From: Gemmatimonadales bacterium
Lineage (GTDB): Bacteria > Gemmatimonadota > Gemmatimonadetes > Gemmatimonadales > GWC2-71-9
DNA length: 64,000 bases
Direction: 5' to 3'
NCBI GenBank assembly: GCA_019637315.1
Contig: JAHBVU010000014.1
Coordinates: forward strand, 1-64,000
Shown here: positions 39,707 to 43,713 of the stretch, in pieces
Position numbering within the stretch: the first letter of the stretch is position 1
Layout of the letters: the number at the start of each line of letters is the position of its first letter
The notes under the pieces: model-generated
What the model saw: only the letters and a program-made list of their open reading frames with translations
Databases searched by the model: none
What the model was told of the DNA's origin: nothing
Position numbers and translations under genes: made by a program

Positions 39707-40159
39707 CTACAGAGGTTTCAAACCTTCGGTGGTCCAGCGCACTTCGTCGTCGATTGCCTGGCGTGAGTAGTCGACTTCGAGCGAGATCGGCACGCCGGTC
39801 TCGCCATCGAAGCGGACTCTGACGTCATCCGCCTGGGCATAGGCTCTCTGGATTTCGACGAAGAGTCCGGGAACGTCGGGGTACCATGGTGCGAGATCGT
39901 CCTGAATCGGGGCACCGGTCGCGACCACCGTCCGCGACACAACGAGGCCATCCTCGACCCGAACTCTGACAGGGATATTGGCTTGGGGGCAGAAGCAGAC
40001 CCTGTTTACGGTCAACTCGTAGCTCCGGAGCCCGGCTTCGTCCCAGCGACGCATGGCGTCGGCGAGTCGGCTGGCGGGACTGCCTGGTTCGAACGCGCAC
40101 GCGCCGAGCGCGAGTGTCAACAGCGCCAGGGTAACGCGAGTACCCAGGGAGTGTTTCAT
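39707..40159 (-). CDS. DUF6174-type lipoprotein
   Basis: A 150-residue lipoprotein: signal peptide MKHSLGTRVTLALLTLALGAC with lipobox LGAC at residue 21. The segments SYELTVNRVCFCP and EIQRAYAQADDVRVRFDGETGVPISLEVDYSRQAIDDE (split here) match DUF6174, in which a CxC-like motif and acidic ending recur. The role is unknown. Its start overlaps the serpin gene's stop by four bases (ATGA), so they are co-expressed. Confidence 0.82.
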   Translation of the reverse strand: MKHSLGTRVTLALLTLALGACAFEPGSPASRLADAMRRWDEAGLRSYELTVNRVCFCPQANIPVRVRVEDGLVVSRTVVATGAPIQDDLAPWYPDVPGLFVEIQRAYAQADDVRVRFDGETGVPISLEVDYSRQAIDDEVRWTTEGLKPL

Positions 40160-41388
40160 GGGATCGACAGAATCCGGCCGACGAAGAGCACCGTACCCGA
40201 CAGCCGTTCCCGAATCACGACGAGGTAGGGCCGGTCCACCGTAACGGTGACTCGCGCCGGGGCGCTGGTGACCCCAACGCCGACCGAGGTGACGGCTGCG
40301 GCCTCGGTGCCTTCTTCGTTGATGTCGACGAAGGTCTTATGGTCGACTCGGGTAAGCCGAAGGGGGTCGGCTTGCGAAATGCCACTCAGGTCGGCCTGAC
40401 GGCTGAAGGCGATGCCCATGCCAAGCTGGCTCAATACCGCCTCAAGCGAGTAAGTGTCTTCCAGGCGTAGCTTGGGCATGGCGAGCACGACGTCGGTTTC
40501 CCGGAGTCCGCTCGCGATCGTCGTGAACTCATCGGCTGTCAGGCGCCCGACCAGATCATTGGCGGATGTGGTTCCGGTTGGGACTACCACCGTCATGGAA
40601 TACGCACCCGAGCCGTACCAAAGGTCGACGGCATGGAAGTCGCTGCCTGCGTAGTAAGGACCGCGCGCTTCCCGGTGCATGAACGGCACCTGCTGCTGGC
40701 GCCCGTCCTCGGCATGGAAGGTTCCGGTCCGGGTCTCGGCGGGTCGGAACTGTCTCCGCCAGGTACCTTTGAAGTGAATCGCGTTGACGGCAAAGAGGAC
40801 TTCGTCCGGTGTGATACCATCGAGGATCGTCGGGATCTTGCCGGCCGTTTTACGGTTGACCCAGTCGTTGATGGTCGCCACCGCCGCTGGCGAGCGGAAG
40901 TCGAGGACGTCGGCTTCTGCGTCGAAGTAGGTTCGCGCGTTGCTCAGAAAGGCCGGAGCGATCGGAAAAGTCTGCTCAGCCCAGATGGAATTGGCGATGG
41001 TGAGCTGTATCTGCGCATCAAGCGAAACGAGCAGCCTGATCAGGTCGCGATAGCCGGCGTTGATGGCCGCGGGCGGAAGCGTCCCGAACCCGAGGGTACT
41101 GGCCATGGCCTCGCGGGTGGAGCCTCGCGCCCCATCCATGACCATTCCGAGCGCCAGGGAAACGGATAACGGCGAGATGAACACGTTCTCGGTCGCGTTC
41201 GTTGCGACCACCCGCCCGAGCAGGTTGAATGCGAAGGTGTTGTTGGCGCGGATGGCCGTCAGCTCGTCGGAGGAGAGCGTCCGCGGCAACTGCTGCAGCA
41301 ACGGTGGTTCGACCGTCGGATCGACGCCGGTCGCGGATTCGCAACCCTGGAGCAACAGCAGCCCCAGCCACAACATTCGGATCCGCAC
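40156..41388 (-). CDS. Serpin-family protease inhibitor, predicted lipoprotein
   Basis: The 410-residue protein is a serpin: NVFISPLSVSLALGMV and NDWVNRKTAGKI are family-typical, and near the C-terminus the hinge EEGTEAAAVTSVGVG precedes a reactive loop and RPYLVVIRE. The small-residue hinge fits an inhibitory serpin; the predicted P1-P1' is a Thr-Ser or nearby Val-Thr pair, suggesting elastase- or subtilisin-type targets. Its signal peptide ends in a lipobox (LQGC, residue 16), placing it on the envelope. GTG 41388 is chosen for GGAG 9 bases upstream; ATG 41376 is an alternative. Bacterial serpins are uncommon. The 297 bases upstream hold no gene I can support, only small hairpins. Confidence 0.9.
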   Translation of the reverse strand: MRIRMLWLGLLLLQGCESATGVDPTVEPPLLQQLPRTLSSDELTAIRANNTFAFNLLGRVVATNATENVFISPLSVSLALGMVMDGARGSTREAMASTLGFGTLPPAAINAGYRDLIRLLVSLDAQIQLTIANSIWAEQTFPIAPAFLSNARTYFDAEADVLDFRSPAAVATINDWVNRKTAGKIPTILDGITPDEVLFAVNAIHFKGTWRRQFRPAETRTGTFHAEDGRQQQVPFMHREARGPYYAGSDFHAVDLWYGSGAYSMTVVVPTGTTSANDLVGRLTADEFTTIASGLRETDVVLAMPKLRLEDTYSLEAVLSQLGMGIAFSRQADLSGISQADPLRLTRVDHKTFVDINEEGTEAAAVTSVGVGVTSAPARVTVTVDRPYLVVIRERLSGTVLFVGRILSIP

Positions 41389-41453
41389 CGGACTGTACTC
41401 CCGCTCAGGTCGCGGTAGTGTAAGGCAATCGTCGTGCCCTCGGGTGGTGCCGG

Positions 41454-41475
41454 CGTTACTCTTTGCAGAGCAACG
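41454..41475. repeat. Small inverted repeat upstream of the serpin gene
   Basis: CGTT-A-CTCT-TTGC-AGAG-C-AACG forms an eight-pair hairpin with one mismatch, about 65 bases before the serpin start. It may be a regulatory structure; nothing else supports it. Confidence 0.25.
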
Positions 41476-41581
41476 ATTTACAGCGGCGCCCCGGGGGTCG
41501 CCTATGACGGATCGACACACCGGCGCGGGGAGGCGCGTTGTCGCTCCGACACGCCCGATTATGTGAGATCGGTCAGGCCCG

Positions 41582-41685: not shown

Positions 41686-42603
41686 TCAAACTGCCGGCGT
41701 GCGACGCGACTTGATGATCGACATCGCGATCGATCCCGTCAGTACCGTCAGGATGAAGCCGAGTGATATCGCGACCGGCAAGTGAAACCATTTGATGAAG
41801 ATCATCTTGACGCCGACGAACGCCAGAATCAGCCCGACGCCGGGCTTGAGGTACTTGAACTGCTGGATCGCGTCCTGAATCACGAAGAACATTGCGCGCA
41901 GCCCCAGGATGGCGAAGATGTTCGAGGTGTACACGATGAACGGATCACGGGTGATGGAGAGAATGGCCGGAATACTGTCGATGGCAAAGACGACGTCGGT
42001 CCACTCGATCACCAGGACGACCACGAACAGCGGCGTCGCGAGCCATCCGGCGGGCGTCTTGACGAAGAACCGCGCGCCTTCGTAGTTCGGCGTCATTGGC
42101 ACCAGTCGCTTGGCCAGCTTGACGAGCGGATTCTTTTCCGGCTCGATCTCATCCTCGTGCTCTTTGAACATCCGGGCGGCCGTGAACAGCAGGATCACCC
42201 CCAGCACGATGAAGAGCCAGTCGAAGCGGCCCAGCACGGCCGTGCCCACCACGATCATGATGCCGCGCATCGCGGCCGCGCCGAACACACCCCAGTTGAG
42301 CACCTTCGAGTGGGCAACTGGCGGGACCGCGAAGTACTGAAAGATCAGAATGAAGACGAACAGGTTGTCGACCGAGAGGGACAACTCTACCAGATAGCCG
42401 GCGTAGTACTCGAGTGCCGACGTCGGCCCGCTCCGCCAGAGAACGATCAGGCCGAAGAGGAGAGATGTCGACACGACGACGGCGGTCCACCGCGACGCCT
42501 CGCGCATCGACAGGACGCGCGCCTTTCGATGTACAATGAAGAGATCGGCCGCCAGCAAGGAGAATGCGACGGCCGCAAACAGAAACCACTCGATTGAGTG
42601 CAC
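41686..42603 (-). CDS. TerC/Alx-family integral membrane protein, probable manganese exporter
   Basis: This 305-residue protein has about nine membrane segments and TerC/Alx-family motifs: VELSLSVDNLFVFILIF near residue 75, DVVFAIDSIPAILSIT around residue 205, and LGLRAMFF. The aspartates inside the membrane are thought to bind metal. Alx and MntP-like relatives are manganese exporters or metalation helpers under yybP-ykoY riboswitch control, and such a riboswitch stands upstream of the operon. It starts 10 bases after the htpX stop. Confidence 0.93.
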   Translation of the reverse strand: MHSIEWFLFAAVAFSLLAADLFIVHRKARVLSMREASRWTAVVVSTSLLFGLIVLWRSGPTSALEYYAGYLVELSLSVDNLFVFILIFQYFAVPPVAHSKVLNWGVFGAAAMRGIMIVVGTAVLGRFDWLFIVLGVILLFTAARMFKEHEDEIEPEKNPLVKLAKRLVPMTPNYEGARFFVKTPAGWLATPLFVVVLVIEWTDVVFAIDSIPAILSITRDPFIVYTSNIFAILGLRAMFFVIQDAIQQFKYLKPGVGLILAFVGVKMIFIKWFHLPVAISLGFILTVLTGSIAMSIIKSRRTPAV

Positions 42604-42613
42604 GGATTATTGC

Positions 42614-43450
42614 CTAGCGCGCGTTCGCCATCTCCATCAGCTTGGCGACCCGTTCCGCGGTTGGAGGATGGGTGGAGAAGAGCTTGGTGAGCCCGCCGCC
42701 CGTTGCCGCCAGCGGGTTGACCTGGGCAAGCGGAGCCGCCGCCGGAGTGATCTGCATCGGGATGCGCTGGGCCATGGCGTCGAGCCGCGTGAGCGCGTTG
42801 GCCAGCGAGCGTGGCCGCCCCAGAATCTCGGCGCCAACCCGATCGGCCTCGAACTCCCGCTGCCGCGAGACGGCCATTTGAATGATTCCGGCGGCCAGAG
42901 GGCCGAGGATCAGGGCTGCCAAGCTCGCAATCGGATGGCCGCCCCCGTCCTCACGGTCCCGCCCGAACATGATCAGCCACGGCAGGTAACCGATTGCGCC
43001 GGCAATACCGGCTGCGATGGTCGAGATCAGCATATCGCGGTTCTTGATGTGCGCCAGCTCGTGGGCCACGACACCCTCGATCTCGTCGACTGGCAGCGCA
43101 CGCAGCAGCCCCGTGGTGACCGCGACGACCGCCTTTTCCGGACTCCGGCCCGTGGCAAACGCGTTAGGCTGAGCTTCGTCCGTGATCGCGACGACGGGCA
43201 TCGGTAACCCAGCGCGCTGGCGCAGCCGGTCGACCATCCGATACAACTCCGGCGCTTCCTGCTCGCTCACCACCCGAGCCCGGTACATCCGAAGCACCAT
43301 CTTATCGGAAAAGAAGTACATGATGAAATTCATGGCCGAACCGACCACGAGGGCAAGCACCAGCCCCTGGCTCCCGCCGATGAGCTGCCCCAGCGCCAGA
43401 AACAGCGCCATCAGAGCCGCCATCAGAACAAACGTCCGCATGTTATTCAT
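42614..43450 (-). CDS. htpX: HtpX-like M48 membrane metalloprotease
   Basis: The 278-residue protease has two N-terminal membrane segments, zinc motif HELAH (His130, Glu131, His134), two further membrane segments and the third ligand in REFEADRVGAE. HtpX degrades misfolded membrane proteins. ATG 43450 is chosen as the family's start (MNNMRTFVLM); the frame upstream runs through the riboswitch and does not encode protein. terC follows after 10 bases, so both genes share the riboswitch-controlled transcript. Confidence 0.94.
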   Translation of the reverse strand: MNNMRTFVLMAALMALFLALGQLIGGSQGLVLALVVGSAMNFIMYFFSDKMVLRMYRARVVSEQEAPELYRMVDRLRQRAGLPMPVVAITDEAQPNAFATGRSPEKAVVAVTTGLLRALPVDEIEGVVAHELAHIKNRDMLISTIAAGIAGAIGYLPWLIMFGRDREDGGGHPIASLAALILGPLAAGIIQMAVSRQREFEADRVGAEILGRPRSLANALTRLDAMAQRIPMQITPAAAPLAQVNPLAATGGGLTKLFSTHPPTAERVAKLMEMANAR

Positions 43451-43480: not shown

Positions 43481-43547
43481 GTGCAAGAACAAAGCGAGAC
43501 CCTCGTCACCGCCCTCACGGAGTGAGGCGGTTGACGAAGGTCTCGCT
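43481..43547 (-). terminator. Riboswitch expression platform: intrinsic terminator
   Basis: On the minus strand a long hairpin (AGCGAGACC and then about 14 more pairs with two bulges, TCC loop, spanning 43547 down to 43493) is followed by TTGTTCTT. It lies before the htpX start. The 5' arm begins with the last two bases of the aptamer's P1 strand, so P1 formation would compete with the terminator base. Confidence 0.8.
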
Positions 43548-43652
43548 CGAGTCGTTCGCCGACCCGGGATAGCCGTGTTGGCCTCGCAGCCAACAGTCTT
43601 GACGACCACCCCGTCCGTCTTTCGCGACGGATAAGCTACTCCCCTTCTCGAG
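43546..43652 (-). ncRNA. yybP-ykoY (manganese) riboswitch aptamer
   Basis: On the minus strand the element runs CTCGAG (P1 5' strand, 43652-43647), then AAGGGGAGTAGC containing the class-defining GGGGAGUAG loop, a CCGTC-GCGAAA-GACGG hairpin, a GTTGGC-GCCAAC hairpin, GGCTATCC that can pair with AGTAGC, GGGTCGGCG, and the P1 3' strand CTCGAG (43551-43546), followed by CGAGACCTTCG. Order and wording match the yybP-ykoY motif, which senses Mn2+. It controls htpX and terC here, the latter being a known target family. Confidence 0.88.
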
Positions 43653-43658
43653 GCGAAC

Positions 43659-43686
43659 GGTACACCCTGGGCGGCTGCCATGTCAA
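43659..43686 (-). promoter_or_regulatory. Probable promoter of the riboswitch/htpX/terC transcript
   Basis: On the minus strand a consensus TTGACA (43686-43681) and a weak TGTACC -10 (43664-43659) with a 16-base spacer place transcription start near 43652, exactly at the riboswitch P1 5' strand. Confidence 0.5.
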
Positions 43687-43713
43687 TCGGAGTGGTCGAA
43701 AATCGGTGGGGTG

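Follow-up and report, generated by a model that had tools for sequence, protein, structure and literature searches.

A yybP-ykoY-class riboswitch, predicted to respond to manganese, in front of an htpX-terC operon of Gemmatimonadota

On the minus strand of the 64,000-nucleotide stretch of Gemmatimonadales DNA analysed here (the window), a structured leader precedes the genes htpX and terC, which raises the question of what this leader senses and how it would act on the two genes. The first gene, htpX (42614-43450, minus strand, ATG at 43450), encodes a 278-aa M48 membrane metalloprotease bearing the HELAH motif; the product matches PF01435 of Pfam (1.3e-34) and the NCBIfam HtpX model (1.9e-107) with 358.7 bits, slightly under its cut-off of 369. 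The second gene, terC (41686-42603, minus strand), begins about 10 bp past htpX, and its 305-aa product of the Alx subfamily scores 366.9 bits against TIGR03718 (R_switched_Alx, cut-off 246.4). Past terC, and likewise on the minus strand, comes a gene for a serpin-family protein (40156-41520; PF00079, 5.8e-107). Elsewhere in the window's genome we found three M48 proteins and two Nramp-like importers, and a search of this genome for MntP gave no match.

The 211-nt htpX leader folds more strongly than its own shuffles (z = -6.4). In order along the minus strand come TTGACA, an L1 motif, a structured region, a strong GC-rich hairpin with a U-rich tail, htpX and terC. The initial annotation had proposed a manganese riboswitch with its own terminator at this place, and the features that it named ahead of htpX (TTGACA at 43686-43681, GGGGAGUAG at 43644-43636 and the terminator hairpin with its U-rich tail) are all present on the minus strand. 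Its remark that a long open frame covers the element also holds: a 355-aa ORF from 43681 spans it, and the htpX start at 43450 is backed by homologous HtpX proteins. Taken as a whole, the locus is very probably a transcriptional Mn2+-ON yybP-ykoY riboswitch of htpX-terC.

At Rfam gathering thresholds no RNA family was detected in the window. Relaxing the settings brings up a partial RF00080 match of 5.2 bits at the htpX leader, the gathering cut-off being 45. The initial annotation had staked the class assignment on such a hit and the score does fall below the cut-off, yet the test is invalid: the leader of E. coli mntP, whose switch is verified, reaches 41.6 bits with RF00080 and also fails, and therefore the threshold cannot exclude membership. 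The 45-bit score is a curation threshold and no defining biological feature. E. coli alx is absent from the RF00080 matches at E<=0.01. RF00080 of Rfam 15 leaves E. coli mntP under the cut-off and overlooks the Gemmatimonadota sub-family; many members of the class may have gone unannotated. Other relaxed-threshold Rfam matches on the leader hairpins were only microRNA or other chance families, and Yfr20 (18.9 bits against a cut-off of 44) was sub-threshold; these candidates were rejected.

R1, a covariance model trained on 14 Gemmatimonadota leaders and free of E. coli sequence, scores 104.9 bits (E=1.6e-22) on the window, whose locus is one of the 14 training rows. Run against 9 kb of E. coli DNA, R1 ranks mntP highest (37.7 bits, 1.1e-7) and alx next (28.3 bits, 1.7e-5). 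In the reverse test RF00080 matches R1 loci of sister genomes, with the best E value, 7.9e-7, at the htpX leader of G059. These reciprocal matches are the deciding test; together with the covariation and the invariant motifs presented below, they make membership well supported, and the class named by the initial annotation stands: the htpX-terC leader appears to be a genuine yybP-ykoY-class riboswitch. The class is a known one; this locus is a further member with an unusual, phylogenetically recurrent target, htpX.

Leaders of relatives were gathered via DNA and TerC searches, and 14 were aligned with MAFFT. Under the proposed structure 92.1% of the alignment cells are paired and 16 of 28 pairs show double changes; none of 500 shuffles matches the real alignment on any of five covariation measures, and sliding the partners by 1-3 columns as a control left 31-45% paired. 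MAFFT placed some of the P2 and P3 rows imperfectly, a bias that runs against the structure. Invariant in all 14 leaders are GGGGAGUAG, UCGUCA and GCGAGACC.

The predicted Mn2+ aptamer occupies 43648-43535 and runs into an intrinsic terminator (43485-43548) with its stem at 43548-43492 and the U-rich tail TTTGTTCTT at 43493-43485, all on the minus strand, as are the features that follow. Its putative four-way junction comprises P1.1, P1.2, P2, P3 and P4, with covariation for P1.1, P2 and P3, whereas P1.2 hardly varies and P4 comes from folding alone. The 5' strand of P1.1, GAAGG (43643-43647), is assigned by covariation and fold; its partner CCUUC (43536-43540) is common to the 5' arm of the terminator. 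The L1 motif GGGGAGUAGC (43635-43644) contains the invariant GGGGAGUAG, and the P2 hairpin (43614-43631) is backed by covariation and the predicted fold. P3 (43566-43612) encloses the internal loop L3, and both its helices covary, with double changes at 7 of 10 pairs in the lower and 4 of 5 in the upper. P4 (43549-43565), predicted by folding from the inferred start, differs in sequence among relatives. The 3' core motif GCGAGACC lies at 43539-43546. At 43600, within CGUCA, stands the invariant L3 adenosine, counterpart of the Mn2+-contacting A41 of L. lactis and A48 of X. oryzae (PMC6754395).

Is this arrangement peculiar to the window? R1 has matches in 79 of 395 Gemmatimonadota genomes, and the comparison of htpX leaders suggested by the initial annotation bears fruit: in many of these genomes htpX or terC is preceded by the aptamer motifs, with the spacing between them unchanged. 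Of the 74 aptamer loci examined, htpX lies downstream at 40, spread over three or more families within the phylum. The gene following htpX is terC at 20 of these 40 (20 of the 74 overall), while 16 have no terC within the stretch read and 4 offer too little downstream sequence. The gene order is conserved, and the proposal of htpX-terC as a regulated operon, predicted to be co-transcribed, is supported. A further 25 of the 74 aptamers lie directly before terC and four before an SPFH/Band 7 lipoprotein gene (one recognised by Pfam, the rest by sequence likeness); one each precedes a Usp gene, an SNF transporter gene and an unidentified gene, and two reach contig ends. The SPFH/Band 7 loci (L147, L160, L162 and L166, in G357, G212, G382 and G058) belong to one genus and encode a membrane quality-control type of protein. 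The single loci L145, L169 and L171, where R1 aptamers precede genes for a universal stress protein, a sodium:neurotransmitter-symporter-family protein and the unidentified gene, are possible further Mn2+ targets.

Within the window's genus, G001, G004 and G005 possess the leader, htpX and terC; in G002 and G003 terC is present, and neither an R1 leader nor htpX was detected. The named records with the aptamer-htpX pattern are all Gemmatimonadetes/Gemmatimonadales MAGs. Orthologous htpX genes of G033 and G043 have no switch, so that the link between htpX and the switch is not universal. In G008 (L041:2250-2700, minus strand) the leader lacks P3 and retains the terminator, and terC is immediately preceded by a short stretch that looks like the beginning of htpX; either the sensor core and htpX seem to have been deleted, or the assembly is at fault here. 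In G333 the strongest aptamer (C83) precedes terC, and a weaker R1 match of 46.9 bits (C134:17936-18055, minus strand) is found some 1.4 kb ahead of htpX. The survey covered Gemmatimonadota genomes, and restriction to the phylum is not claimed.

Since some relatives' aptamers precede Usp, SNF-transporter or SPFH genes, the same fold might bind a ligand other than Mn2+, or respond chiefly to pH or another divalent ion; E. coli alx, too, is reported to be tied to alkaline pH. Against this, a motif scan finds CGUCA, which holds the Mn2+-contacting L3 adenosine, in 72 of the 74 leaders, the L1 motif is intact, and TerC/Alx is a classic Mn2+ target. We consider a different ligand improbable, and Mn2+ the likely effector.

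How would Mn2+ binding reach the downstream genes? The -35 hexamer TTGACA (43681-43686, minus strand) has its equivalent in most family leaders, a TTGA(C/T) some 40 to 45 nt ahead of the aptamer's GGGG. The -10 region (43657-43664, minus strand), read as TGTACC or TACCGT, is a weak match placed by consensus, relatives having TANNNT in the same place. The promoter is kept in the relatives' leaders, with TTGA(C/T) at about -42 and TANNNT ending at about -13 from GGGG. A simple promoter scan of the leader called no promoter because the -10 fits poorly, and comparison with relatives was used in its stead; the transcription start is predicted near 43650. Folds computed from 43650 contain P1.1 (43647-43643 with 43540-43536), P2, P3 and P4, and the terminator later captures CCUUC. 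The 3' strand of P1.1 lies entirely within the terminator stem, so the two structures are mutually exclusive. The three strands (P1.1 5', P1.1 3' and terminator arm) change in concert among relatives, reading GAAGG/CCUUC/GAAGG, AGUGG/CCACU/AGUGG or GAAAG/CUUUC/GAGAG; a shared strand that still pairs with either partner after such changes marks a two-state switch. On this comparative evidence, P1.1 GAAGG/CCUUC is the true switch helix.

The initial annotation had drawn the switch otherwise. It closed the aptamer with a helix of CGTTCGCC (43659-43652) and GGCGAACG that overlaps the base of the terminator by two bases, and one could keep the same aptamer and terminator with this helix as the main switch, the more so as it appears in the minimum-energy fold once upstream sequence is included and in the aptamer's centroid structure. 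The CGTTCGCC strand, which is the 5' strand of this helix, however, overlaps the predicted -10 and sits ahead of the predicted start; with a start near 43650, most of it would probably not be transcribed. Equivalent pairing does not exceed chance in most relatives, whereas P1.1 covaries. We rejected the CGTTCGCC/GGCGAACG helix, which is very improbable as the main switch. What survives of the earlier geometry is the overlap of aptamer and terminator, its extent being the whole 5-nt 3' strand of P1.1 plus the GCGAGA core instead of two bases.

With P1.1 as switch helix, the co-change of P1.1 and terminator supports Mn2+-ON antitermination of the L. lactis type, the direction also proposed in the initial annotation. 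In L. lactis, Mn2+ was measured to stabilise P1.1, the 3' segment of which otherwise joins the terminator (PMC11087558). The full-length minimum free energy here is -96.3 kcal/mol against -76.6 kcal/mol with P1.1 enforced, a terminator state more stable by about 20 kcal/mol at the level of secondary structure; therefore the default would be termination, and the ligand must act during transcription. The U-tract TTTGTTCTT is imperfect, and several f2 and f6 terminator tails are without a clear U-run. We propose that RNA polymerase, starting near 43650, transcribes the four-way-junction aptamer. At high Mn2+, L1 and L3 would come together around the ion and hold P1.1 in place, CCUUC would be barred from the terminator and htpX-terC would be transcribed; at low Mn2+, the 3' strand GAGCGAGACCUUCGUCA would pair with UGACGAGGGUCUCGCUU and transcription would stop. 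That the leader is an ordinary terminator or attenuator without ligand sensing, its aptamer likeness due to chance, could draw on the RF00080 score below the cut-off, but the reciprocal matches with E. coli mntP and alx, the covariation and the phylum-wide conservation refute it as far as sequence can, leaving it scarcely credible.

Two products would thus be induced together by excess Mn2+: a membrane quality-control protease and a TerC/Alx-type protein acting as Mn2+ exporter or metalation factor. Our literature search, which brought up at most the TerC paper, gave no account of htpX as a yybP-ykoY target; this is weak evidence, as subscription papers were largely beyond the search. Adding htpX to the target set would tie Mn2+ sensing directly to a membrane protease. 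By analogy with B. subtilis, a role shared by HtpX and TerC in membrane-protein quality control is plausible, and HtpX may be needed under Mn2+ stress. More broadly, and tentatively, since we put it at somewhat below an even chance, the Gemmatimonadota riboswitch may govern a membrane quality-control set made up of HtpX and TerC (as metal exporter or metalation factor), joined in one genus by an SPFH/Band 7 protein. If so, the cell would read surplus Mn2+ as a danger to its membrane and secreted proteins and respond with protease and exporter at once, which would give independent genomic support to the proposed TerC-secretosome link. The sub-family scores far below the public model's threshold and would be missed in annotation.

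Among known systems, the L. lactis yybP-ykoY switch before yoaB is alike in its four-way junction, the L3 motif UCA-A, a P1.1 3' strand within the terminator and transcriptional Mn2+-ON control (PMC11087558, PMC6754395); it differs in its target, which here is htpX-terC, and the window's P2-P4 are GC-rich. E. coli alx and mntP share the aptamer, as matched by R1, and alx is of the TerC family like the second gene here; unlike in the window, htpX is not involved there, and control of mntP is translational according to the available part of PMC11647493. B. subtilis ykoY (meeY) likewise places a TerC-family gene under a Mn2+ riboswitch. The accessible part of PMC10550928 describes no riboswitch control of htpX in that organism; it reports that B. 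subtilis TerC proteins export Mn2+ and help metalate exported enzymes, and that HtpX, FtsH and flotillins are recovered along with MeeF, one of the TerC proteins, on purification, a finding that the htpX-terC pairing in Gemmatimonadota matches. Flotillins, which according to the same portion of that source co-purify with B. subtilis TerC, are SPFH proteins too, as are those encoded behind the aptamer in one Gemmatimonadota genus.
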